Below, in pieces: positions 19,235 through 30,603 of a stretch of 31,165 bases of DNA. Made by a program: the position numbers and the translations under genes. The DNA is from Nonomuraea sp. (GTDB lineage: Bacteria > Actinomycetota > Actinomycetes > Streptosporangiales > Streptosporangiaceae): the NCBI GenBank assembly GCA_013362835.1, contig JABFVJ010000390.1:1-31165 (forward strand), given 5' to 3'. How positions within the stretch are numbered: the first letter of the stretch is position 1; the number at the start of each line of letters is the position of its first letter. The notes below the pieces were generated by a model. That model had not been told where the DNA came from and ran no database searches. It saw only the letters and a program-made list of their open reading frames with translations.

Positions 19235-20215
19235 ATGAAGAAGCTCCTCAACACGGCCGAGTCCGTGGTTGACGACGCGCTCGACGGCATGGCGGCGGCC
19301 CACCCCTCCCTGCGGGTGCGTGACCGGGTGGTCTACCGGGCCGAGGGCCCGCGTCCCGGCAAGGTGGGCCTGGTGTCGGGCGGCGGGTCGGGCCACGAGC
19401 CGCTCCACGCCGGATTCGTCGGCCACGGCATGCTCGACGCGGCCTGCCCCGGCGAGATCTTCACCTCGCCGGTGCCCGACCAGATCATCGAGGCCACCAG
19501 GGGCGTCGACGGCGGCGCGGGCGTGCTCCACATCGTCAAGAACTACACCGGCGACGTGCTCAACTTCGAGATGGCCGCGGAGCTCGTCGAGGGCGCGGAG
19601 GTGGCCCGCGTCCTGGTCGACGACGACGTGGCCGTCCAGGACTCCCTGTACACGGCGGGGCGGCGCGGCACGGGGGCGACGCTGTTCGTGGAGAAGATCG
19701 CGGGGGCGCTGGCCGAGGAGGGCGCGCCGCTCGCGGAGGTCGCGCGGGTGGCGGGCGAGGTGAACGAGCGCAGCCGTTCGTTCGGCATCGCCCTGACCTC
19801 CTGTACGACGCCCGCCGCCGGCAAGCCGACGTTCGACCTGCCGGAGACGGACGTGGAGCTCGGCATCGGCATCCACGGCGAGCCCGGCCGCGCGCGGGTG
19901 CCGATGGCCTCGGCGCGTGAGCTGGCCGCCGTCGCCATGGAGGCGATCCACGGCGACCTGCCGCTCCGCGGCGACCTGCTCGTCATGGTCAACGGCATGG
20001 GCGGCACCCCGCTCATGGAGCTGTACGTGGTGTTCGCCGAGGTGGCGGCGTTCGTGAAGGGCAAGAACGCGCGCGTGGCCCGCTCCCTCGTCGGCAACTA
20101 CGTGACGAGCCTGGACATGCAGGGCTTCTCGGTGACCGTGTGCCGGCTCGACGAGACGTCGGCGCGGCTGTGGGACGCGCCGGTCGAGACGCCCGCACTG
20201 CGCTGGGGGCGTTGA
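19235..20215 (+). CDS. dhaK: Dihydroxyacetone kinase subunit DhaK
   Basis: A 326-residue dihydroxyacetone-binding subunit. GGGSGHEP (49-56) forms the substrate pocket and His214 in GIGIHGEPG is the residue that binds dihydroxyacetone covalently in the family. ATG 19235 starts the conserved MKKLLN sequence; the ribosome site is weak. With DhaL and DhaM it forms the PTS-type kinase that phosphorylates dihydroxyacetone using phosphoenolpyruvate-derived phosphate. The stop overlaps the dhaL start by one base (TGATG), showing coupling. No DhaR/DhaS regulator is visible nearby. Confidence 0.95.
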
Positions 20216-20853
20216 TGGACACCGGCTTCTTCGTCGCCTGGCTCGACGAGGCGGCCCGGCTCGTACGCCGCGACCGCGACCGGCTGATCGAGCTCGACGC
20301 GGCGATCGGCGACGCCGACCACGGCGCGAACCTCGACCGCGGCTTCACCGAGGTCGCCAAGGCACTCGCCGACCGCCCTCCGGGCTCGCCCGGCCAGGCG
20401 CTCACCGAGGCCGGCACGGCCCTCATCCGCCGCGTCGGCGGCGCCTCCGGCCCCCTGTACGGCTCGATGTTCCGCCAGATGGGCAGGGCCCTGGAGGCCA
20501 TGGAGGCGCCGGTGACGCTGGCCCGCTTCGAGGCGGCGTTCGAGGCCGGGGTCGTCGCCCTGGAAACGCTGGGCAAGGCGGCGCTGGGCGACAAGACCAT
20601 GGTCGACGCGCTGGTCCCCGCCTCGCGGGCGCTGGCGCTCGCCGTACGCGACGGGATCGGGGCGCGGGAGGCGTTCGAACGGGCGGCGGCCGCGGCGGCG
20701 GAGGGCGCGCGGGAGACGATCCCGCTCCAGGCGCGCAAGGGCCGGGCCGGCTACCTCGGCGAACGCAGCATCGGGCACGAGGACCCCGGGGCGGCCTCGG
20801 CGGCCCTGATCATGGAGGCGCTGGCGTCGGTGGGCGACCGATGGTCGGGCTAG
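20215..20853 (+). CDS. dhaL: Dihydroxyacetone kinase subunit DhaL
   Basis: A 212-residue all-helical ADP-binding subunit. The Mg-ADP site is seen as GDADHGANL (Asp33, Asp35, His36) and GDKTMVDAL. In the PTS-type system the bound ADP is rephosphorylated by DhaM and the phosphate passes to dihydroxyacetone on DhaK. The start overlaps the dhaK stop by one base and the last 13 bases overlap dhaM, so the three proteins are made together at similar levels. Confidence 0.95.
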   Translation: MDTGFFVAWLDEAARLVRRDRDRLIELDAAIGDADHGANLDRGFTEVAKALADRPPGSPGQALTEAGTALIRRVGGASGPLYGSMFRQMGRALEAMEAPVTLARFEAAFEAGVVALETLGKAALGDKTMVDALVPASRALALAVRDGIGAREAFERAAAAAAEGARETIPLQARKGRAGYLGERSIGHEDPGAASAALIMEALASVGDRWSG

Positions 20854-21215
20854 TGCTGGTCTCGCACAGCGCCGGGCTGGCGGCCGAGGCGGCGGCGCTG
20901 GCGCGCGGGATCGCCGGTGAGCCCGTTCCGGTGGCGGCGGCGGGCGGCACCGAGGACGGCGGGCTCGGCACCAGCCTCGACCTCGTCGAGAAGGCGCTGC
21001 GGGCCGTCGACCAGGGTGACGGCGTGGTGATCATTCCTGATCTGGGGAGTTCGGTGCTGACCTCCCGGCTGGTGGAGGAGGACGGGCGGGTGGTGATCGC
21101 GGACGTGCCGTTCGTGGAGGGCGCGGTCGCGGCGTGTGTGGCGGCGTCACTGGGCGGGTCGCTGGAGCAGGTGCTGGCCGCCGCCGAGGAGGCCCGCACC
21201 TACCGCAAACTCTGA
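20841..21215 (+). CDS. dhaM: PTS-dependent dihydroxyacetone kinase phosphotransferase subunit DhaM
   Basis: A 124-residue single EIIA-mannose-type domain. His9 in VLVSHSAGLA is the phosphorylation site; VVIIPDLGSSVLTS and VPFVEGAVAA are family landmarks. Unlike E. coli DhaM it has no fused HPr or EI-like domain, so it needs cellular EI and HPr, encoded elsewhere. The start lies inside dhaL (13-base overlap). The stop is 10 bases from the end of the convergent ThDP enzyme gene, with no clear terminator hairpin between. Confidence 0.94.
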   Translation: MVGLVLVSHSAGLAAEAAALARGIAGEPVPVAAAGGTEDGGLGTSLDLVEKALRAVDQGDGVVIIPDLGSSVLTSRLVEEDGRVVIADVPFVEGAVAACVAASLGGSLEQVLAAAEEARTYRKL

Positions 21216-21225
21216 CACCGCCCGC

Positions 21226-22923
21226 TCAGTGGCCTTTGAACGCCTCCTCCAGCCACCAGGAGCCGCGTTCGCCGGTGATCTTGGCGTGCACCAGGAGGGG
21301 GCGGTCGCGCGGGCCCTTGAGCCATTCGGCGACGCCCGCGAGGTCGGCGGGGGCGGTGACGGTGACGGCGGCGAACCCGTGGCCCCTGGCTATCGCCGCC
21401 AGGTCGGACGGCGGGAACCTGACCGTGTCCAGCGGATGCCCGTGCGGGCCGAAGTGGTGCACCTCCGCGCCGTACGCCTCGTCGTCGTACACCACGACCA
21501 CCATGGGCAGGCCCAGCCTGACGACGGTCTCCAGCTCGGCGATGCCCATGAACGCGCCGCCGTCGCCCAGGGCGGCCACCGGGAGCCGGTCGGGGCGGGC
21601 CAGGGCGGCGCCGATCGCGGTGGCGAGGCCGAGGCCGACGGACTGGAACGCCTGGGTGAAGCAGAACCCGCCCTCGTCCGGGACATCCATGAACATGGAC
21701 GGATATCCCATGAAATTTCCGGAATCGACGGACAGGATGCGTTCGATCGGGAGCAGGTCGTCCAGGCCGATCGTGAGCGTCCTCGGGTCGATCCGGCCCC
21801 CGCCGCTCTCGTCCTGGTACGGGACCGCCCGCCAGCGCCCTTCGCCCCTGATACGCCGCGCGACCTCGGGCGACCGATACCCGTCGACGCCTTCCGGCTC
21901 CGGGTGCCGGGCGGCGAGTGCGCCGGGACCGGAGGGCCGCGTGGCCAGGGTGGCGGCGACGGCTCGTACGTCGCCGGTCACGCCCAGGTCGACGGGCACG
22001 TGGGCGCCGAAGGCGGCGGGGTCGAGGTCGACCTGGGCCACCTTCGCCTCGGGCGGGATGAGCGAGCCGTGCCGGGTGGTCCACATGTTGAGCGCGCAGC
22101 CCCAGCCGACGACCAGGTCCGCGCCGCGGATCAGCTCGGCCGCCAGCGGGGTGGCGAAGCCGCCGCTCACGTCCAGGTCCCACGGGTCGCCGCGGAACAG
22201 GCCCTTGGCGACGGCGGAGGTCGCCAGCAGCGCGCCGGTCCGCTCGGCCAGCAGCTCCAGCTCCCGCCGGGCGTGCCGGGCGCCGCGCCCAGCGACGAAC
22301 ACCGGCCGCCGCGCTCCCTCCAGCATCCGCGTCAGCGCGACCACCTCCCCCTCGGCCACGCTCCCGAGATCGCTCCCGATGCCCGGTGTTCCGGTGCGGA
22401 GGGCGTGGGCGGCGGGGATGAGGCGGTCGAGGGAGTCGCCGGCAGGGGTGGACTGGAGGTCGAGGGGGAGGTTCAGCAGGACGGTGCGGCGTTCGTCACG
22501 GGCCAGCCGGAACGCTTCCAGCGTCTGCTCGCCGGCCCGCTCAGGATCGGTGACCCGCAGCGGGACCGCGCCCACCGCCACGGCCAGCGCGTCCTGGTCG
22601 ACGTGGAAGTTGGAGCGGACGTCCGTGGCCTCGCCGGCCAGCACGATCAGCGGCGTACGGCTCTTGGCCGCCTCGGCGAGGCCGGTCATCGCGTTGGTGA
22701 GCCCCGGCCCCTGGTGCACGGAGACGAGGCCGACCCCGCCGCTCATCCGGGCGTGGGCGTCGGCCATGGTCGCCGCCCCGCCCTCGTGCCGGGCCGCGAC
22801 GAAGCGCACCCCCTGACCGGCCAGCGCGTTGGTGACGTGGAAGTTGCCGCTGCCGACCACGCCGAAGACGATCTCGGCGCCGCAGGCCGCCAGGACCCGG
22901 CCGACGACTTCCGCGACGATCAA
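21226..22923 (-). CDS. ThDP-dependent enzyme (acetolactate synthase / benzoylformate decarboxylase superfamily)
   Basis: A 565-residue, three-domain ThDP enzyme. Catalytic Glu47 lies in ARHEGGAATMADAHARMSG; the cofactor motif starts at GDGGAFMGIAELETVV and ends with YDDEAYGAEVHHF, where Asp takes the usual Asn place. The start is TTG 22923 within TTGA, overlapping the stop of the cyclase gene, so it is coupled to it. No ACT-domain small subunit is nearby and the sequence is unlike IlvB, so biosynthetic acetolactate synthase is unlikely. Decarboxylation of a 2-keto acid made by the cyclase-family partner is my inference; isatinate is one candidate substrate. Confidence 0.85.
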   Translation of the reverse strand: MIVAEVVGRVLAACGAEIVFGVVGSGNFHVTNALAGQGVRFVAARHEGGAATMADAHARMSGGVGLVSVHQGPGLTNAMTGLAEAAKSRTPLIVLAGEATDVRSNFHVDQDALAVAVGAVPLRVTDPERAGEQTLEAFRLARDERRTVLLNLPLDLQSTPAGDSLDRLIPAAHALRTGTPGIGSDLGSVAEGEVVALTRMLEGARRPVFVAGRGARHARRELELLAERTGALLATSAVAKGLFRGDPWDLDVSGGFATPLAAELIRGADLVVGWGCALNMWTTRHGSLIPPEAKVAQVDLDPAAFGAHVPVDLGVTGDVRAVAATLATRPSGPGALAARHPEPEGVDGYRSPEVARRIRGEGRWRAVPYQDESGGGRIDPRTLTIGLDDLLPIERILSVDSGNFMGYPSMFMDVPDEGGFCFTQAFQSVGLGLATAIGAALARPDRLPVAALGDGGAFMGIAELETVVRLGLPMVVVVYDDEAYGAEVHHFGPHGHPLDTVRFPPSDLAAIARGHGFAAVTVTAPADLAGVAEWLKGPRDRPLLVHAKITGERGSWWLEEAFKGH

Positions 22924-23693
22924 CGTTCCACCAGGGCCAGGACGCGGACGGGGCTGCCGGAGCCGCCGACGATGGACAGCGGCGGGGCGACCACGGCGGC
23001 GCCGGTCACCGGCAGGCGGTCGAGGTTGCGGAGCTGGGTCAGGCCGTACTTGCCGGCGCCGAGCAGGTAGGAGTGGCAGGGGAAGGCGGGATCGAAGGAG
23101 TGGGCGGCGCCCGCGTCGGTGCCGACGGTCTCCACGCCGAGGCCCAGGATCGGGGTCTCGGCGGCCAGCCAGGAGGCGCACTCCGCGGAGATGCCGGGCG
23201 TGTGGGGGCCGGTCTCGTCGGCGTTCAGGAAGGCGGCCTGGTCGGCCGAGCGGGCGTCCCAGCCGGTGCGGTAGAGGAGCCAGCCGCCCTCGGGCAGCGG
23301 GCCGTTGGCGCGTTCCCACTCCTTGACGTGGTCGATCTGGAGGAGGAAGTCGGGGTCCTTGGCCGCCTCGGCGGCGAAGTCGAGGACGACCGCGGGGGCG
23401 ATCAGGCTGCGCGGGGGCACCTGGGAGACGTCCTCGCCGTCGCGGGCGGTGACCCAGTGGACCGGGGCGTCGAAGTGGGTGCCGGTGTGCTCGCCGAGGT
23501 GGAGGTTGTTCCAGTACCAGGCGGGGCCGCGGTCGTCGTAGCGGCTGATCTCCTCCAGGCGGAGCGGGATCGTGTTGCCGAACGGCTCGGGCAGCTGGAG
23601 GATCGGCGTGTCCGCGGTGAGGGGCGCGGTGAGGTCGATCACCTCGATCGCGCCGCTGCGCACACTGTCCACGAAGCTCTGCAACACCGACAT
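22920..23693 (-). CDS. Cyclase family metal-dependent hydrolase
   Basis: A 257-residue protein of the cyclase/kynurenine formamidase/isatin hydrolase family. The metal site HxGTHxDxPxH is complete: His69, His73, Asp75 and His79 (HTGTHFDAPVHW). ATG 23693 has a very strong AAGGAGGATGAC ribosome site. The family hydrolyses cyclic amides or formamides using Mn or Zn. The gene is followed without gap by a ThDP enzyme gene, and lies 61 bases after the second ABC permease on the same strand, so it could be a late part of the sugar operon or head a separate two-gene unit. The substrate cannot be assigned from sequence alone. Confidence 0.87.
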   Translation of the reverse strand: MSVLQSFVDSVRSGAIEVIDLTAPLTADTPILQLPEPFGNTIPLRLEEISRYDDRGPAWYWNNLHLGEHTGTHFDAPVHWVTARDGEDVSQVPPRSLIAPAVVLDFAAEAAKDPDFLLQIDHVKEWERANGPLPEGGWLLYRTGWDARSADQAAFLNADETGPHTPGISAECASWLAAETPILGLGVETVGTDAGAAHSFDPAFPCHSYLLGAGKYGLTQLRNLDRLPVTGAAVVAPPLSIVGGSGSPVRVLALVER

Positions 23694-23754
23694 GTCATCC
23701 TCCTTGATGGGCTGAGCGCATCCTCCTACTGTCGCCCCACCTGTGCAAACATCC

Positions 23755-24567
23755 TCACCCCTTGAGCCCGCTGAAGCTCATCGTGGCGACGAAGTGCCGC
23801 TGGGCCAGCACGAACGCGGCCACCAGCGGCAGCACGGCGACAACGTTCCCCGCCATGAGCGCCGACCACTCGGTGTGCCGCGCCCCGGCGAAGGTGGCCA
23901 GGCCCATCTGCAGGGTGTAGGAGTCCTCGGAGGAGATCGCGATCAGCGGCCACAGCAGGTCGTTCCAGGCGCCGAGCAGCGTGAACACGACCAGCGTGGC
24001 CAGCGCGGGCCGGGCCAGCGGCAGCACGACGCGGAAGAACACCCCGAGGCGGGAGCAGCCGTCGATGACGGCGGCCTCCTCCAGCTCGCGGGGCAGCGAC
24101 AGGAAGAACTGCCGCATGAGGAACACGCCGAACGCCGAGGCCAGCCACGGCACGATGGCCGCGCCGAGGGTGTCGATCAGCCCGAGGTTCCTGAACAGCA
24201 GGAACGTCGGGATCATGAGCACCTGGGCGGGGATCATGATGGTGGCCATGAGCGCCCCGAACGCCAGGCCGCGGCCCCGGAACGTGATGCGGGCGAAGCC
24301 GTACCCGGCGAGGGAGCAAAGGACGACGTGGCCGATCACGGCGGCGACGGCGACGACGACGGTGTTGCCGAGCCAGCGCGGGTAGTCGTCCTCGGTGAAG
24401 ATGCGGGTGAAGCCGTCGAGGGTGAAGTGCTCGGGCCACAGCTTGGGCGGGTAGGTGTTGATGTCGGCGTCCGGCATGAACGCGGTCAGCGCCATCCAGA
24501 CCAGCGGCGCGGCGAACAGCAGCGCGAGCGGCATCAGGAACAGGTGGGCGAGGTGGCGCCGCTTCAC
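23755..24567 (-). CDS. Carbohydrate ABC transporter permease (MalG type)
   Basis: A 270-residue membrane protein with six hydrophobic segments. The EAA loop reads EELEEAAVIDGCSRLGVFFRV followed by LPLARPA, the docking site for the ATPase. GTG 24567 has GGAGGGGGA seven bases upstream and overlaps the preceding permease stop as GTGA. It pairs with the MalF-type permease and lipoprotein encoded just upstream to import a sugar. No ATPase gene is in the window; actinobacterial sugar transporters commonly share one ATPase (MsiK), which is probably the case here. Confidence 0.94.
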   Translation of the reverse strand: MKRRHLAHLFLMPLALLFAAPLVWMALTAFMPDADINTYPPKLWPEHFTLDGFTRIFTEDDYPRWLGNTVVVAVAAVIGHVVLCSLAGYGFARITFRGRGLAFGALMATIMIPAQVLMIPTFLLFRNLGLIDTLGAAIVPWLASAFGVFLMRQFFLSLPRELEEAAVIDGCSRLGVFFRVVLPLARPALATLVVFTLLGAWNDLLWPLIAISSEDSYTLQMGLATFAGARHTEWSALMAGNVVAVLPLVAAFVLAQRHFVATMSFSGLKG

Positions 24568-25466
24568 TTCGTCCCCCTCCACAGGGTCAGGCCGGACACG
24601 GCGAGCGTGACGGCGAACAGGACGTAGGCGATGGCGGCGCCGTAGCCGGAGTGGAAGAGCTGGAACGCCTGCCGGTAGAGGTAGAAGACGATCACGGTGG
24701 TGGAGTCGAGCGGCTGGCCCTTGGTGGTGGTGTAGACGAGGTCGAACAGCTGCAGGGCGGTGATCGTCTGCCAGATCACCAGGAACACGGTGGCGGGCCG
24801 GAGCTGCGGGAGCACGACGTGGCGCAGCACGTGGCGGCCCGCGCCGCCGTCGACCCTGGCGGCCTCGGTGAGCTCGCGCGGGATGTCCTGGAGGGCCGCG
24901 AGGTAGACGACGGCGGGCATGCCGACCCCGCCCCACAGCGAGATCACCACGAGGGTGAGCATCGCCTGGTCGGGGTCCTGGAGGAAGCTCATCGCGGGCA
25001 GGCCGAGCGCCTTCAGCCCGGCGTTGACGATGCCGAAGTCGGGGTCGAAGACGAAGTTCGCCAGGATGCCCGTGGCGGCGGCGGAGACGACGTAGGGGAC
25101 GAAGAAGCAGGTGCGGTAGAAGCCGATGAGCCGGATCTTCAGGTTCAGGGCCAGGGCCAGGGCCAGGCCGAGGAGCACCGAGCCGGGCACGAACAGCACG
25201 GTGTAGACCAGGGTGTGGCCGGCGGCGGCGCGCAGGTCGGCGTCGCCCAGCAGGTCGCGGTAGTTCCGCAGGCCGACGAAGTCGCCGCCGTTGAGCAGGT
25301 CGCCGTCGCGCAGCGACAGCAGCAGCGCCCACGCGGCCGGGAACAGGCTCAGCCCGACGATCACGACCGTGGCGGGCAGCACGAACCCCCAGCCGGTCAG
25401 CTCGGGCAGCAGGCGCCGCCGCCGCGCCCGCCGGGCGCCGCTCCCCGCGACCGCCGCCGCCGTCAT
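24564..25466 (-). CDS. Carbohydrate ABC transporter permease (MalF/UgpA type)
   Basis: A 300-residue membrane protein with six hydrophobic segments after a basic N-terminus (ARRARRRRLLPEL). The EAA loop is RELTEAARVDGGAGRHVLRHVVLPQLRP. ATG 25466 overlaps the binding-protein stop as ATGA and the gene's own stop overlaps the next permease as GTGA. Together the genes encode the membrane pore of a sugar importer whose cargo is suggested by the flanking GH4 and GH114 genes. Confidence 0.94.
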   Translation of the reverse strand: MTAAAVAGSGARRARRRRLLPELTGWGFVLPATVVIVGLSLFPAAWALLLSLRDGDLLNGGDFVGLRNYRDLLGDADLRAAAGHTLVYTVLFVPGSVLLGLALALALNLKIRLIGFYRTCFFVPYVVSAAATGILANFVFDPDFGIVNAGLKALGLPAMSFLQDPDQAMLTLVVISLWGGVGMPAVVYLAALQDIPRELTEAARVDGGAGRHVLRHVVLPQLRPATVFLVIWQTITALQLFDLVYTTTKGQPLDSTTVIVFYLYRQAFQLFHSGYGAAIAYVLFAVTLAVSGLTLWRGTK

Positions 25467-26728
25467 CGCGCGCGCTCCAGCACGCGGTCGGCCTCGGCCG
25501 CGGCCTTGGTCAGAGCCTCCTGTACGGGCGTCCCCCCGACGAGCGCCCGGTCGATGGCGTCCCCGACCTTCTCGGAGAACTCCGGGTACGCCGGCAGGTG
25601 CGGCCTGGCCTGCTTGGCGTTGTCCAGGTTGGCGGTGAAGACGTCCATGTCGGGGAAGTCCTTGACGAACTGCGCGTAGGCGGGCAAGGCGGTCGTGGCC
25701 TTGCGTACGGGCAGGTTGCCGAGCCCGAGGGTCCACCGGGCGTCCTGCTCGGGACGGGTGAGCCAGGTGAGGAAGTCGGCGGCGGCCTTGGCCCGGCGGG
25801 AGCCGTTGTCGAACACGACCCAGTTGTCGGGACCGGCGATGGTCTCGTGGTTGCCGTCGTAGCCGGGCAGCACCTGGACGCCGTAGGAGACCTTGTGGTC
25901 GATGACGTCGAGCAGCGCCCACGGCCCGGCGATGACCATGCCGATCTTGCCGCTCTGGAACAACGGCAGAAACTTCTCGCCATTTTGGTCGAGATATACG
26001 GACTTGTCCTGGCGGGCCATCGCGCTCCACAGGTCCAGCGCCTTGACCGCCTGCGGCGTGTTGAACGCCGACTTCTTTCCGTCCTGGCTCACGATCGACC
26101 CGCCCTGCTGCCAGATCATCGGCCAGAACCGCCACACGGTGTCCTCGGCCCCGGTGACCGGGTACGCGGTGCCGTACACGCCGTCCCTGGTCAGCCTGCG
26201 GGCAGCGGCGCGGAAGTCGTCCCAGGTCCAGTCCTTGGCCGGGTACGGCACCCCGGCCGCGTCGAACAGCTTCTTGTTGTAGATCACGGCCAGGTTGTCC
26301 ACCACGGCCGGGATGCCGACGACCTTGCCGTTCACCTCCGACACGGCCCGCTCCGACGGCCAGAAGTCGTCCCACTCGAACGCGGGGGCCTTCACGGTCG
26401 CGGTCAGGTCGTACACCTTGGGGTTCTTGGCCAGGTGCGGCATCCACGTGCCGTACATGTACGCGATGTCGGGCGCCTTGCCGCCGGCCAGCACGGCCTG
26501 GACCTTCTGCAGCATGTCGTCCACGTTCGTGGTGCCGACGGCGGGCACGACCTTCACGTCGGGGTGGGCCTTGTTGTAGTCGGCCGCCAGTCGCTCGATG
26601 ACCTTGGCCTGGGTCTCGACCTGGCCGTGCCACCAGGTGATCTGGACCGGGCCGCCGGCGTCCTCCTGCGACGATCCGCAGCCCGTGAGCAGCGCGGCCG
26701 TCAGCAGCACCGCCGCCGCGCGCCTCAC
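25463..26728 (-). CDS. Sugar-binding lipoprotein of ABC transporter
   Basis: A 421-residue extracellular solute-binding protein of the MalE-like family 1. The short signal ends in the lipobox LLTG-C (Cys17), so the protein is lipid-anchored outside the membrane. Typical segments are ITWWHGQVETQAKVIERLAADYNKAHPDVKV, PDIAYMYGTWMP and WTWDDFRAAARRL. GTG 26728 overlaps the GH4 stop as GTGA. Several aromatic residues (WW, W.W, Y.YG) could stack on sugar rings, fitting an oligosaccharide. It captures substrate for the two permeases encoded next. Confidence 0.94.
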   Translation of the reverse strand: MRRAAAVLLTAALLTGCGSSQEDAGGPVQITWWHGQVETQAKVIERLAADYNKAHPDVKVVPAVGTTNVDDMLQKVQAVLAGGKAPDIAYMYGTWMPHLAKNPKVYDLTATVKAPAFEWDDFWPSERAVSEVNGKVVGIPAVVDNLAVIYNKKLFDAAGVPYPAKDWTWDDFRAAARRLTRDGVYGTAYPVTGAEDTVWRFWPMIWQQGGSIVSQDGKKSAFNTPQAVKALDLWSAMARQDKSVYLDQNGEKFLPLFQSGKIGMVIAGPWALLDVIDHKVSYGVQVLPGYDGNHETIAGPDNWVVFDNGSRRAKAAADFLTWLTRPEQDARWTLGLGNLPVRKATTALPAYAQFVKDFPDMDVFTANLDNAKQARPHLPAYPEFSEKVGDAIDRALVGGTPVQEALTKAAAEADRVLERAR

Positions 26729-28017
26729 GACCGGCTCCGCAGCGACTCGGGCAGCAGGTCGCCGTGGGCCTTCAGCAGCGCCGCGCACAGTTCGTCGATC
26801 TGCTCCACGGTCAGGGTGGCGGCCGTGTTCGGATCGGCCATCATGGCGTGGCGTACGTGCTCGGGGCGTCCTTCGGTCGCGGCGCGTACGGTGAGCTCGT
26901 TGACGTTGACGTAGGCCCGGTTGAGCGCGGCGCACTGGGCGGGCAGGTCGCCCACGGCGACCGGCCGCACGCCGAGCGCGTCGGCCACGACGGGCACCTC
27001 GACCACGCATCCGGCGGGCAGGTTGCCGATCAGGCCGTGGTTGGGCACGTTGCCGTAGAGGGTGCGGCTCGTGCCGGTGGTGAGGCTGTGGATGATCTGC
27101 GGGGCGTATTCCATGGTCCCCTCCGCGGTGATCGGCCGGCCCGCCCTGAGCGCGTCGCGGGTGGCCTCGTAGGTGCGCACGTTCTCCTCGCTGATGCCGA
27201 CGTAGGCGCCCACGGGGATGCGCAGCCGCTCGATCTCGGCCTCGTCGCGCAGGTACCAGGGCACGTACTCGGCCGAGTGCTCGCTCGTCTCGGTCGGGTA
27301 GTGGCCGAGCCTGCGGTACATGTCCACCCGGACCCGGCGCAGCATGCCGGGGTCGGCGTCGATGACCGCGTCGAGGCGCGGGTACAGGTCCCGCCCCCCG
27401 GACTCGAAGCGCAGCAGCCACGACTGGTGGTTGACGCCCGCGGCCAGGTAGTCGACCTCTTCGTACGGCACGCCCACCAGCTCGGCCAGGTCGTGGGCGG
27501 TCCAGTAGATCGAGTGGCACAGGCCGACGACGTTGCGCACGGGCGTGGCCGCCGTCAGGTACCAGACGTTCATGGCCATCGGGTTGGTGTAGTTGAGCAG
27601 CCAGGCGTCCGGGCACACCTCGGCCATGGCGTGGCCGATGCGGTCGAGCGCGGGGAAGGTGCGCAGGGCGCGGAAGATGCCGCCGACGCCGATGGTGTCG
27701 GCGATCGTCTGGCGCAGGCCGTAGCGGGCGGGCAGGTCGAAGTCGACGCGGGTGGCGTCGATCATGCCGACCTGGATCATGTTGATCGCGAAGTCGGCGC
27801 CCTCCAGCGAGCGCCGCAGGTCCAGGTGGGCCGAGACGGTGATGCCCGGCCGGTCGCCGACGATCGCGCGGGCGGCGGCCTCGGCGGTCTCCAGGCGTTC
27901 GGGATGGATGTCGTGCAGGGCGACCTCGAAGCCGCCGAGGTCGGTGAAGGCGGCCAGGTCGGCCAGCAGGCCCTGGGTGAACTCGACGCTTCCCGCGCCG
28001 AGAAAGGTGATCTTCAT
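26725..28017 (-). CDS. GH4 family glycosidase, alpha-galactosidase (MelA)-like
   Basis: A 430-residue cytosolic NAD- and Mn-dependent glycosidase. The NAD site is KITFLGAGSVEFT; the metal ligands are Cys167-His168 (GLCHSIYW) and His197 (GVNHQSW). TIADTIGVGGIFRALRT, NYTNPMAMNVW and ETSEHSAEYVPWYL match the E. coli MelA clade closely, as I remember it, rather than phospho-glucosidases. The family breaks alpha bonds by a redox mechanism at C3. AAGGAG precedes ATG 28017, which overlaps the PfkB stop as ATGA. It likely hydrolyses imported alpha-galactosyl or galactosaminyl oligosaccharides before phosphorylation by the kinase encoded upstream. Confidence 0.92.
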   Translation of the reverse strand: MKITFLGAGSVEFTQGLLADLAAFTDLGGFEVALHDIHPERLETAEAAARAIVGDRPGITVSAHLDLRRSLEGADFAINMIQVGMIDATRVDFDLPARYGLRQTIADTIGVGGIFRALRTFPALDRIGHAMAEVCPDAWLLNYTNPMAMNVWYLTAATPVRNVVGLCHSIYWTAHDLAELVGVPYEEVDYLAAGVNHQSWLLRFESGGRDLYPRLDAVIDADPGMLRRVRVDMYRRLGHYPTETSEHSAEYVPWYLRDEAEIERLRIPVGAYVGISEENVRTYEATRDALRAGRPITAEGTMEYAPQIIHSLTTGTSRTLYGNVPNHGLIGNLPAGCVVEVPVVADALGVRPVAVGDLPAQCAALNRAYVNVNELTVRAATEGRPEHVRHAMMADPNTAATLTVEQIDELCAALLKAHGDLLPESLRSRS

Positions 28018-28952
28018 AGCTCCTTCCAGGCAGGTTGGGCGGCGGTGCCGCCGGCCGCGCGGGTGGACAGCGAGCCGCAGGTCACGGCCACGTCCAGGCA
28101 CTCGCGCATGGTCAGGCCGCGCAGTCGCGCGGCGATGAGTCCCGCGTTGAAGCTGTCGCCCGCGCCGACGGTGTCCACGGGCTCGACCGGTACGGCCGGC
28201 GCCCGCGTCACCTGTCCGGCCTCCCACGCCAGCGCGCCGTCGGCGCCGTCCTTGACGACGACCGCGGGCCCGAGCGCCCCCAGGCGGGCCGCCACGGCCT
28301 CCAGCGACTCCCCGCGAACACCGGCCCCGGCCTCGCCTCGAACGCCGGACAGCCGGGCCGCGACGGCCCTGGCCTCGTCGGCGTTGGGCAGGAACACGTC
28401 GGTCTCGGCGAGCACGTCCGCGAGGCCGTCCCACCGGCCCGCCGGGTCGTCGTTGGTGTCCAGCGACGTCGTGGCGCCCGCCCGGCGCAGCTCGGCGAGG
28501 AGCGCGGGCAGCCCGGCCGCGAGCCCCGGTTGCAGGAAGTACGACGACACGTGCACGTGCCTCGCCAGCCCGCGCGGCACGTCGTCCGCCGTCAGGAAGG
28601 GCAGGCACCCCGGCGAGGTCAGGATCGCCCGGTCCGTGCCGTCGGCGAGCACCACGGTCATCGCCGTGGGCCAGGAGCCGGTCACGCAGCGGGAGACGTC
28701 CACGCCGCGCTCGGCCATCGCGCCGAGCACGAACCGGCCGGCCGCGTCGTCGCCCACCCGGCCGACGAACGCGGTGCGCAGGCCGAGCCTGACGGCCCCG
28801 CACGCGGTGATCGCGCCGGAGCCGCCGAGCACCAGGTCGCCGCCGGAGACCAGCCGTTCGCGCTGGCCGTACTCCAGCTCCCTGGGGGCGCCGGAGAGGA
28901 CCACGTCGGGGTTGGCGTCGCCGACGACCAGCAGGTCGAACTCACTGGCCAC
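28014..28952 (-). CDS. PfkB-family carbohydrate kinase
   Basis: A 312-residue ribokinase-type sugar kinase. The catalytic base lies in DTVGAGDSFNAG (Asp266); the N-terminal GG motif is VLGGSGAITAC with VVGDANPDVVLSG at the start. Residues 203-215 hold a small GVRGE duplication. GTG 28952 lies inside the GH114 gene (11-base overlap) and the stop overlaps the GH4 start as ATGA, so it is embedded in the operon. Substrate is not certain: a monosaccharide released by the GH4 enzyme (galactose, galactosamine or N-acetyl form) is the natural guess from context. Confidence 0.92.
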   Translation of the reverse strand: MASEFDLLVVGDANPDVVLSGAPRELEYGQRERLVSGGDLVLGGSGAITACGAVRLGLRTAFVGRVGDDAAGRFVLGAMAERGVDVSRCVTGSWPTAMTVVLADGTDRAILTSPGCLPFLTADDVPRGLARHVHVSSYFLQPGLAAGLPALLAELRRAGATTSLDTNDDPAGRWDGLADVLAETDVFLPNADEARAVAARLSGVRGEAGAGVRGESLEAVAARLGALGPAVVVKDGADGALAWEAGQVTRAPAVPVEPVDTVGAGDSFNAGLIAARLRGLTMRECLDVAVTCGSLSTRAAGGTAAQPAWKEL

Positions 28953-29802
28953 GGCAGGGCACCCGGTAGGCGTCGAGCTCGTACTTCTTCTTCAGCGAGT
29001 TGAAGTTCTGGGCGTTGGACTTCGCGCAGAACTTCGACGTGGCCAGGTTGTACTCCACCTGGAAGACCGCCTTGCCCGCCTTGACGAACTGGTCGTAGCC
29101 GTAGCCGCCGTTCTGGGCGGTGGTGCACTCGGCGTGCTCCCAGCACTCCTCGTTGACGGCGAAGTCGAAGTAGGGCAGCAGCTTCGGGATCTGCTCGACG
29201 TCGTTCTTCAGCGCCACCGACAGGCCGCGCCTGTGCGCCTCGTTGGCCAGCCAGGTGTTGTACGCGAGCTGGTCGGCCGCCTTGAGCGGGAAGCCGCTGT
29301 CGTTGGCGTAGCCGTCGACGTTGTCGGGCTCGACCGCGTCGAACCCGGCCGCCTCGCACATGTCCAGGCGGGCCTTCATGATCGTGCCGAGCTTGCCGGT
29401 GTAGGCGCGGACGTCGAGCCAGCGCTCGCCCTCCCACTCCTCCAGCGGCGAGCCGAGCACCTCCTTGGGGAACTGCGCGGCGTCGGGCCGCCAGTCCTCG
29501 TACGTGCCCGCGCTGATGTAGCAGACGAGCCCGCGGCCGGGCTTGTCGGCCTTGAGCGCCTTGACGATGGCGCCGTCCTTGGCCGCGAAGCCGTCGATGT
29601 CGTACATCTGGACGTTCGGGTACGGCTTCTTCGGCAGCGACGACAGCTGCCACTGCCAGCTCGTGTTCAGGGCCGGCTTCCAGCAGCCGTCGCAGGGCAC
29701 CGGAGCGGGCAGGGCGGCGGGCACGACGGCGGCCCGCGCGGGGGCCGGGAGAAGGGCGGTGGCCGCCAGGGCGGCGGCGGAGACGAGCACAGGAAGACGC
29801 AT
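28942..29802 (-). CDS. Secreted GH114 endo-alpha-1,4-polygalactosaminidase
   Basis: A 286-residue exported protein. The signal peptide ends near residue 24 (ALLPAPARA). The mature part is a TIM-barrel of the TM1410/GH114 type: TSWQWQLSS, PNVQMYDIDGF, GLVCYISAGTYEDWRPD, GFDAVEPDNVDGY (Glu158, Asp160) and FAVNEECWEH. Eight cysteines fit disulfides outside the cell. ATG 29802 with GAGGAGTGACC is chosen over longer starts since it begins the signal peptide. GH114 enzymes cut alpha-1,4-linked galactosamine polymers such as fungal galactosaminogalactan. It is the first gene of the sugar operon and overlaps the kinase gene by 11 bases. Confidence 0.9.
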   Translation of the reverse strand: MRLPVLVSAAALAATALLPAPARAAVVPAALPAPVPCDGCWKPALNTSWQWQLSSLPKKPYPNVQMYDIDGFAAKDGAIVKALKADKPGRGLVCYISAGTYEDWRPDAAQFPKEVLGSPLEEWEGERWLDVRAYTGKLGTIMKARLDMCEAAGFDAVEPDNVDGYANDSGFPLKAADQLAYNTWLANEAHRRGLSVALKNDVEQIPKLLPYFDFAVNEECWEHAECTTAQNGGYGYDQFVKAGKAVFQVEYNLATSKFCAKSNAQNFNSLKKKYELDAYRVPCRGQ

Positions 29803-30012
29803 GGTCACTCCTCGCGAACGATGGGGTTCGGGATTCGTGGCGATGCGTACTGTTCCGCACTCTCCGTACCGCGTCCGTGCCGGGGACGCCGGAGTGGCGT
29901 GGCCCATAGAACGTAGGGCGATCACGCCAGCACGCTCAGCGTGCCTCCCTTCTGTTGCCGCATAGAATTGCGCGTTGTTGCTCCGTTGTCCAGAGTTTGC
30001 GGCAGGAAAGCG
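29803..30012. promoter_or_regulatory. Promoter region of the GH114 operon with inverted repeats
   Basis: This 210-base gap should hold the operon promoter and the end of the gene at 30013. GCACGCT (29930-29936) and AGCGTGC (29938-29944) form a 15-base near-perfect palindrome about 130 bases before the GH114 start, a candidate repressor site or terminator of the upstream gene. TGCCGCA (29956-29962) and TGCGGCA (29998-30004) form a wider dyad. No sure -35/-10 pair is visible and no regulator gene is adjacent. Confidence 0.4.
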
Positions 30013-30603
30013 TCACACCTTGGTCCACTGTGCGCATCCGGCCGTCTGGAAGGCCTTGTCTGCGGGCTGGATGGTGACGCTCGCCGGGCCGTTCGGGGCG
30101 CCCGCGTCGATCACCGCGGCGGGGCTGGGCGACGTGCTGTTCAGCCGGGCCCAGAAGCAGTTGGTCGAGCCGGGGACCGGACCGGTCGTGCGGTAGGTGC
30201 CGGGCTGGATGTCCACGCCCACGACGAGCGTCCGCATGGTCGCGGCCGGGCCGGTGCTCCCCGTCGGCAGAGCGGCCGGACCGGTCTGCGCGGGCCCGGT
30301 CGGGGCGGGGCCTGTGGGTCCGGGCTGAGTGGGACCCGTCCGGGCGGGGCCGGGGTCGGTGGACTGCTGGGGCTGGCCGGTGGGCTGGTCAGTGGGTGGG
30401 CCAGTGGGCGGATCGGTGGGCGGGTCGGTGTCCTCGGCCGTCACCGTGACCGTGGGCGCGGGCGCCGCCGACGACTCTCCCGCGCCGAACCCGACGAAGA
30501 CGCCCAGCAGGAAACCCAGCACCGCGGCCAGCCCGGCCACCAGCAGGATGATCGTCGGACTGTTCGTCGCCCGAGGGTACTCAGGAGGGGGTCCGTACAT
30601 CAC
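30013..30603 (-). CDS. Membrane-anchored protein with Pro/Thr/Gly-rich linker
   Basis: A 196-residue protein starting at GTG 30603 (ATG 30600 is also possible). Residues 1-16 are polar, 17-42 a membrane segment, 47-122 a disordered linker rich in Pro, Thr and Gly with short repeats (DPPTDPPTGPPTDQPTGQP; GPTGPAPTGPA), and 124-196 a compact domain with VDIQPGTYRT, two cysteines (149, 190) that may pair, and a FWARL segment. That end domain is frequent in actinobacterial surface proteins and has no function known to me. The topology suggests an extracellular domain held off the membrane by the linker, crossing the wall. It lies between the CBS gene and the sugar operon on the same strand. Confidence 0.8.
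   Translation of the reverse strand: MMYGPPPEYPRATNSPTIILLVAGLAAVLGFLLGVFVGFGAGESSAAPAPTVTVTAEDTDPPTDPPTGPPTDQPTGQPQQSTDPGPARTGPTQPGPTGPAPTGPAQTGPAALPTGSTGPAATMRTLVVGVDIQPGTYRTTGPVPGSTNCFWARLNSTSPSPAAVIDAGAPNGPASVTIQPADKAFQTAGCAQWTKV

Follow-up and report, generated by a model that had tools for sequence, protein, structure and literature searches.

The six minus-strand genes running from position 29802 to 23755 of a 31,165-nucleotide stretch of Nonomuraea sp. DNA (GenBank assembly GCA_013362835.1, contig JABFVJ010000390.1; the whole stretch is called the window here) encode a secreted GH114 enzyme, a PfkB kinase, a GH4 glycosidase, a lipoprotein and the two permeases of an ATP-binding cassette (ABC) importer. 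We read these genes as an operon for the utilisation of alpha-galactosaminan, and put the probability of this reading at about two in three (0.66). With this gene set a soil actinobacterium can probably digest and feed on sticky, positively charged polymers of galactosamine that occur in fungi or in biofilms.

In the proposed pathway the secreted GH114 enzyme would cut an alpha-1,4-linked polymer rich in galactosamine (GalN), which may be fungal galactosaminogalactan, a Pel-like matrix or polygalactosamine. The lipoprotein and the two permeases would import the oligosaccharides, presumably with an ATPase that is shared with other sugar importers. Inside the cell the GH4 enzyme would take off sugar units, and the PfkB kinase (PfkB1) would phosphorylate the released sugars. 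A second locus, coding for an AgaR-like regulator, an AgaS-like isomerase/deaminase, a NagA-type deacetylase, a second PfkB kinase (PfkB2) and a class II aldolase, would then deacetylate and deaminate the products and cleave them into triose phosphates. Expression of the GH114 enzyme would be set by a structured RNA leader that precedes its gene.

The operon and its GH114 enzyme

The features of the core region are as follows:

29829..29951, minus strand: c-leader, conserved three-way-junction RNA 5′ of GH114 (covariance model, covariation)
28942..29802, minus strand: secreted GH114 endo-alpha-1,4-galactosaminidase-like enzyme (PF03537, 269.8 bits)
28014..28952, minus strand: PfkB-family sugar kinase (PfkB1), proposed kinase for GalN or N-acetylgalactosamine (GalNAc) (PF00294, 162.3 bits)
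26725..28017, minus strand: GH4 glycosidase, proposed intracellular exo-alpha-galactosaminidase or alpha-galactosidase (PF02056, 171.6 bits; PF11975, 177.1 bits)
25463..26728, minus strand: lipoprotein, family-1 solute-binding protein (SBP) of the importer (PF01547, 141.5 bits; lipobox LLTGC)
24564..25466, minus strand: ABC permease A (PF00528)
23755..24567, minus strand: ABC permease B (PF00528; permeases A/B, 60.3 and 66.2 bits)

The gene order and the tight packing that had been predicted were confirmed from the sequence. Successive genes overlap by 11, 4, 4, 4 and 4 bases, and the start/stop overlaps are of the ATGA type for GH4 and permease A and of the GTGA type for the lipoprotein and permease B. 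All six core proteins score above the curated Pfam cut-offs. GH4 proteins identical to that of the window occur in metagenome-assembled genomes named Nonomuraea.

The GH114 protein is a genuine member of PF03537 (269.8 bits against a cut-off of 27), a family that also spans the sister family GH191 (PMC12054363; statements on the literature here and below rest on excerpts of the cited papers). As read by eye, its N-terminus is a Sec-type signal (...APARA); the lipobox of the lipoprotein was likewise identified by eye. The closest solved structure is Ega3 (6oj1, E 5.7e-46), and further solved matches are a GH191 enzyme and a Fusarium GH114, both named from their descriptions together with PMC12054363. 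In Ega3 the nucleophile is Asp189 and the acid/base is Glu247 (PMC12054363). D160 and E218 of the window protein align with these two residues, the spacing being 58 in both enzymes, and an 88-residue stretch that includes the catalytic pair aligns with Ega3 without gaps (41 of 88 residues identical). The mobile loop of Ega3 has a tryptophan at its tip, to which W123 corresponds in the alignment as read by eye. The prediction of a secreted GH114 enzyme is borne out by family membership, the retained catalytic pair and the signal sequence, and the protein would be expected to cleave an alpha-1,4-linked GalN-rich polymer.

GH4 scores above the cut-off of the NCBIfam alpha-galactosidase subfamily NF011657 (547.5 bits, cut-off 486), a subfamily model that is no proof of substrate. 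PfkB1 reached no NCBIfam cut-off; its best-scoring solved structures are mostly ribokinases, and the solved-structure search was uninformative on its specificity. We putatively assign GH4 and PfkB1 to GalN/GalNAc, and the transporter to oligosaccharides of the GalN-rich polymer.

Conservation of the neighbourhood and a second locus

For comparison, 80 loci were picked by similarity of the GH4 protein alone, with one genome per species; these are the best 80 of 176 relatives among the matches listed. Full flanks are available for 68 of them, and 12 are cut by contig ends. The presence of gene families was scored by hidden Markov models (HMMs) that were built from the loci themselves, with chosen cut-offs of 130–300 bits. 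A GH114 gene lies within about 10 kb in 48 of the 80 loci (43 of the 68 with full flanks), and the chance of finding one in a 21-kb stretch is about 0.1%, as roughly estimated from about 0.4 GH114 genes per genome. Nine of these 48 loci encode the window's type of enzyme (c-type, 49–86% identity to the window protein), and the remaining 39 a divergent d-type (29–38%). Both d-type proteins tested, from L018 and L062, are PF03537 members, and the L018 protein is nearest to Ega3. The other families were detected as follows: permease (A-type HMM) in 79 loci, SBP in 73, PfkB1 in 65, DeoR regulator in 40, class II aldolase in 25, SIS protein in 23, and PfkB2 and amidohydrolase-2 in 16 each. The amidohydrolase-2 gene (PF04909; L068:12280-13395 and 15 other loci) is regular in Cellulomonas relatives, Actinomadura and others, and its product might conceivably act as a deacetylase.

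Four Nonomuraea loci (L001–L004) keep the whole gene order of the window, including two unrelated upstream genes. Many Streptomyces, Kribbella and Embleya loci show the order GH114-SBP-permeases-PfkB1-GH4; Cellulomonas relatives combine SBP-permeases-PfkB1-PfkB2 with GH4, aldolase, SIS and amidohydrolase, and other genomes have GH114-GH4-PfkB1-DeoR (L288) or SIS-aldolase-GH4-PfkB1-DeoR (L291). The functions thus recur in shuffled order, as is expected of a pathway. A second cluster type with two GH4 genes was seen in Nonomuraea and relatives (L010, L013, L014, L015, L022, L027, L035, L042 and L049); here the two GH4 genes face each other around the DeoR gene, and the second GH4 is 46–52% identical to that of the window.

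In a sample of 120 genomes from the window-type family, 49 PF03537 matches were spread over 46 genomes, and GH4 matches (E ≤ 1e-100, down to 48% identity) were present in 29. Mere presence of the two genes is weakly associated (17 genomes with both, 29 with GH114 only, 12 with GH4 only and 62 with neither; Fisher p 0.015). In 13 of the 17 genomes that have both, the genes lie within 10 kb of each other. The striking signal is adjacency rather than co-presence, and a chance neighbourhood is ruled out by the GH114 and GH4 frequencies in the 80 loci and the 120 genomes. The neighbourhood of GH114, PfkB, GH4 and SBP is conserved far beyond Nonomuraea.

The original prediction listed no deacetylase, deaminase or regulator gene in the operon and held that such steps must be supplied elsewhere, if the substrate is right. 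A subset of the relatives carries genes for an AgaR-like regulator, an AgaS-like isomerase (SIS), PfkB2 and a class II aldolase beside the same GH4/PfkB1 set. In the genomes of L001–L004 a strong SIS homologue (E ≤ 1.2e-138) is found away from the GH4 locus, and the second loci of these genomes (L101–L104) contain a divergent DeoR gene and genes for SIS, PfkB2 and aldolase, with a deacetylase gene between SIS and PfkB2. The L104 deacetylase passes the nagA model TIGR00221 (265.9 versus 225.65 bits), which leaves N-acetylglucosamine-phosphate and GalNAc-phosphate unseparated. A strong SIS match is present in 10 of the 11 genomes searched, and a relative of the deacetylase (at least 72.9% identity) in 9 of the 11 second loci, L107 and L108 being those that miss it. 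In Sphaerisporangium (L105) we found DeoR, SIS, deacetylase and aldolase genes and no PfkB2 in the available piece. The predicted supply of the missing steps from elsewhere therefore holds for the deaminase/isomerase and the regulator, which lie in cis in some relatives and in trans in L001–L004, there together with the NagA-type deacetylase; no relative of this deacetylase turned up in the 80 GH4 loci.

The assignment of these proteins varies in firmness. For the DeoR protein AgaR is the best NCBIfam model by E-value, at 194.8 and 203.8 bits under a cut-off of 260. The SIS protein matches agaS_fam weakly (33.5 and 37.7 bits versus a cut-off of 529.2), and its solved relatives include glucosamine-6-phosphate deaminase, GlmS and putative tagatose-6-phosphate ketose/aldose (AgaS-type) isomerases. 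The aldolase is over the cut-off of the class II ketose-bisphosphate aldolase model TIGR00167 in L018 and under it in L075, and for PfkB2 the general model TIGR03168 for hexose kinases is the only one passed in L020, with none passed in L062. Taken together, the second locus and the operon set would correspond to the aga pathway, by which GalNAc and GalN are catabolised (PMC4694137). The window's own genome presumably has a second locus as well, and the pathway would be of galacto rather than gluco configuration. When the GH114 promoter was compared by eye with the second locus, no convincing shared operator site was seen.

Two further genes of the window follow permease B:

22920..23693, minus strand: flanking cyclase-family gene, outside the core (PF04199)
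21226..22923, minus strand: flanking gene for a thiamine pyrophosphate (TPP)-dependent enzyme, outside the core (PF02776/PF00205/PF02775)

The cyclase gene is separated from permease B by a gap of 61 bases. The TPP-enzyme gene has a possible TTG start that overlaps the cyclase stop, and its product is far under the cut-off of each of the 25 NCBIfam models shown. The pair occurs downstream in 5 of the 80 GH4 loci, namely those of the four closest Nonomuraea and of a Sphaerisporangium. These two genes (21226–23693) are not core of the operon, so that the originally predicted range of 21226..29802 stands for the six genes from 23755 to 29802 and has to be shortened by this pair. Convergent with the operon, at about 19250–21215 on the plus strand, are genes which, from their translations, we take to encode the dihydroxyacetone kinase subunits DhaK, DhaL and DhaM.

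Structured RNA leaders of GH114 genes

The region 5′ of the window GH114 gene is taken as its leader; in an alignment of 8 such leaders the mean column identity is 70%. This c-leader forms a three-way junction closed by GCGUGCUG/CAGYRCGC and has a nearly invariant ACUCC...GGAGAGUG helix; from the closing helix to the GH114 start codon downstream of it there are about 40 bases. The conserved RNA at 29829–29951 had escaped the original prediction. A covariance model was built from 8 sequences, the window among them, and on this model the window leader scores 123.2 bits. Strong copies were detected once each in 7 of 11 genomes and in 8 of 120 genomes (E ≤ 8.3e-10), where a ninth genome gave E 0.005. 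In the class, 4 of 394 genomes had a c-leader; the searches of 120 and 394 genomes scored few candidates per genome, and weak copies may be missed. All 13 distinct strong matches precede GH114, 5 of them being model-building loci, and this holds even where GH114 is distant from GH4 (G007 and G008). Three weak matches (E 0.005, 0.05 and 0.73) have no modelled genes nearby.

When 14 distinct sequences were aligned to the model, its 26 pairs were formed in 94.7% of the cells and in 8 of the 26 both partners had changed (0 of 500 shuffles), while slid structures reached at most 55% paired; this alignment is fitted to the tested structure, which favours that structure. The 8-sequence MAFFT alignment made before fitting contains 4 pairs with double changes (2 of 500 shuffles), and the number of pair types in it is no higher than in the shuffles. 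Folded alone, the window leader has a z of −2.53. In its minimum-energy fold GGCACGC, the 5′ strand of the closing helix, pairs with an upstream GCGTGCT and P1 is not closed; as read by eye, this alternative pairing looks possible in Nonomuraea leaders only. Helix P3 was rejected as a general anti-Shine-Dalgarno element, since a GGAGTG start region, the complement of the CACTCC strand, is found in only 9 of 15 rows. The match is absent in L027, L035, L124, L125, L126 and L299, and in a 16th row (L079) no P3 strand was located. A scan of 29700–30150 for promoters and terminators found nothing.

A different structured leader precedes d-type GH114 genes and SBP genes in Streptomyces, Kribbella and Embleya. 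This d-leader was found by pattern in 45 copies in the first set of loci (L018:4716-4808 and 44 more). A second copy stands before the SBP gene in five loci, and in three loci lacking GH114 the d-leader is found before SBP. In a MAFFT alignment of 27 sequences the three-way junction, a structure drawn from the same sequences, is 95.3% paired versus 32–47% for slid controls; both partners are changed in 7 pairs (8 of 500 shuffles) and in 33 cells (0 of 500). Model copies are present in 37 of 40 operon genomes. Among 200 Streptomycetaceae genomes, 32 have the d-leader and 29 have GH4, with 28 having both, 1 GH4 only, 4 the leader only and 167 neither (Fisher p 8e-29).

In 61 loci the pattern re-found 63 copies of the d-leader in 59, missing L194 and L210. 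These copies precede GH114 in 54 cases and SBP in 7, and 2 were left unassigned by the script. One of the latter, in L047, is followed by SBP as the next family match, the open reading frame chosen by the script being taken as a wrong frame. From the end of the pattern to the start of the longest frame there are 26–33 bases in 49 of the 54 GH114 copies and 12–16 in the other 5. This spacing suggests that the d-leader controls translation.

The other unassigned copy bears on the function of PfkB1. It belongs to the genome of L029, in which the main operon lacks PfkB1, and precedes the following gene:

L189:5198-6208, minus strand: BadF/NagK-type kinase gene beside a second GH114 gene (L029 genome)

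The second GH114 gene, which the kinase gene adjoins, also has a d-leader (weak match, E 0.001). This apparent swap of a NagK-like kinase for PfkB1 is a single case and provides the best evidence that PfkB1 may be an aminosugar kinase.

At gathering score, Rfam release 15 recognised only a tRNA in the window. This tRNA gene (RF00005) lies at the extreme edge, at 6–79 on the minus strand. For the leader regions the best matches at E up to 10 were at E 0.51 (window) and 0.57 (L018), and no match was obtained at E up to 0.1 in 7 loci comprising 50318 bases. No known riboswitch was found in the GH114 leaders, neither leader having a credible Rfam match in the stretches scanned. The c- and d-leader are candidate new RNA classes, for which an earlier description in a 2017 survey of 224 candidate RNAs is possible, and the c-leader could represent a novel type of gene switch. 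More speculatively, and in our view rather doubtful as a whole, the two leaders could be new regulatory RNA classes, most plausibly riboswitches sensing galactosamine, GalNAc, their phosphates or a partner protein, that control alpha-galactosaminan feeding in actinobacteria together with new specificities of GH4 (exo-alpha-galactosaminidase) and PfkB (GalN/GalNAc kinase).

Alternative readings and known systems

Several observations weigh against alpha-galactosaminan as the substrate. GH114 is absent from the stretch in 32 of the 80 loci (25 among the 68 whose flanks are complete, 7 among the 12 that are cut), and of these 32 genomes 22 have PF03537 outside the stretch and 10 have none at all. 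The module of uptake and GH4 can therefore exist without GH114, and perhaps the loci lacking it feed on oligomers released by others; conserved neighbourhoods without GH114, an outcome that the original prediction had named as refuting it, are thus observed in part of the loci. NCBIfam files the window GH4 as an alpha-galactosidase, because of which a galactose-specific GH4 is possible, and the SBP relatives from the solved-structure search give no hint of the ligand. A NagA-type deacetylase was found in 0 of the 80 GH4 loci. In Nonomuraea glycinis (G009) only fragments of SIS are left (L111, near 9774), with DeoR, deacetylase, PfkB2 and aldolase remaining, and locus L015 of this species keeps GH4 and GH114 despite the fragmentary SIS, also without PfkB1. 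The L104 DeoR protein (203.8 bits to AgaR) scores level with the haloarchaeal GlpR model, and the aldolase and PfkB2 models do not split tagatose from fructose substrates. A more general role in aminosugar catabolism is possible for the second locus. Finally, SIS is near universal in Streptomycetaceae (187 of 200 genomes); its presence in trans in 35 of the 38 operon-bearing genomes is therefore background, and we rejected the co-occurrence of SIS and operon in Streptomyces as support.

An operon for alpha-galactosides (melibiose/raffinose or a galactose-rich oligosaccharide) would have a MelA-type GH4 and a PfkB acting on a ketose, and its GH114 would clear galactosamine to free the galactose of galactosaminogalactan. 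The NCBIfam score of GH4, the galactose that this polymer also contains (PMC12054363) and the 10 genomes with a GH4 locus and no GH114 speak for it. We nevertheless consider it unlikely, given the AgaR-like, AgaS-like, PfkB2 and aldolase genes beside the same GH4-PfkB1 set in some relatives and the NagK-like kinase that, under a d-leader, adjoins GH114 where the main operon lacks PfkB1. Quite unlikely, too, is an operon that serves gluco-configured aminosugars or some different alpha-GalNAc/GalN glycan, in which the specificity of GH114 has drifted and SIS, PfkB2 and aldolase yield fructose-1,6-bisphosphate instead of tagatose-1,6-bisphosphate. It would fit the ambiguous aldolase and PfkB2 models, a Thermotoga GH191 that is neither active on nor binds Aspergillus galactosaminogalactan oligomers and a Fusarium GH114 that is inactive on Pel (PMC12054363), but fits less well with Ega3 as the closest solved structure and with the gapless conservation around the catalytic residues. 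That GH114 remodels the cell's own matrix or disperses a rival biofilm, the rest of the operon only recycling sugars, is highly improbable: Ega3 does serve polymer maturation in Aspergillus (PMC12054363), but the overlapping importer, glycosidase and kinase genes point to uptake of the products. The catalytic pair of GH114, the conserved neighbourhood and the missing steps found in relatives lead us to retain the alpha-galactosaminan operon as the preferred reading, tempered by the 32 loci without GH114 and the filing of GH4.

Biofilms of fungi and bacteria contain galactosaminogalactan and Pel as matrix polymers, for which cutting enzymes are sought as tools. The locus family offers many secreted bacterial GH114 candidates, along with transporters and enzymes that act inside the cell, and leads us to predict a recycling route for GalN polymers. 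For the two unclassified leader RNAs the neighbouring genes point to one sugar, which makes a direct test possible. As background, a galactosaminidase activity of Streptomyces griseus lacks a known sequence, and a study from 2025 obtained no usable soluble bacterial GH114 enzymes (PMC12054363). In agreement with the view that the operon is not a described system, we found no description of a GH114 utilisation operon in the open-licence PubMed Central literature (titles and abstract starts, among the matches listed).

The aga pathway of Streptococcus suis (PMC4694137), likewise known from Escherichia coli, comprises the regulator AgaR, the deaminase/isomerase AgaS, the deacetylase AgaA and a tagatose-1,6-bisphosphate aldolase, functions with proposed counterparts in the second locus. 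E. coli AgaR is of the DeoR type (PMC4694137). Uptake in the aga pathway is by a phosphotransferase system; the window has ABC import of oligosaccharides and a GH4 enzyme, along with a distinct PfkB kinase and a secreted enzyme that cuts the polymer. Ega3 of Aspergillus fumigatus (6oj1/6ojb) shares with the window GH114 the family, the catalytic Asp/Glu, their spacing and, by eye, the loop tryptophan, but it is fungal, membrane-bound and biosynthetic, while the window enzyme is bacterial, has a signal sequence and is encoded in an uptake operon (PMC12054363). The leaders resemble the msiK leader RNA of actinobacteria in being cis-RNAs in the potential 5′ untranslated region of a sugar-uptake gene; the msiK leader is a long hairpin with a bulge, whereas the c- and d-leaders are three-way junctions tied to GH114 (PMC2864571).

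The nearest described system is the csnREFGHK cluster for chitosan oligosaccharides of Streptomyces, which likewise combines an aminosugar ABC importer, a GH4 enzyme and a putative sugar kinase and is paired with a secreted endo-enzyme (PMC6097792). The csn cluster serves a beta-1,4-linked glucosamine polymer, has its chitosanase gene elsewhere and includes a ROK regulator (PMC6097792). In the window system, by contrast, GH114 is part of the operon, the kinase is of the PfkB family, a DeoR/AgaR-like regulator is encoded in the second locus of relatives and RNA leaders are present. By analogy, the window operon would work alike for an alpha-linked GalN polymer.

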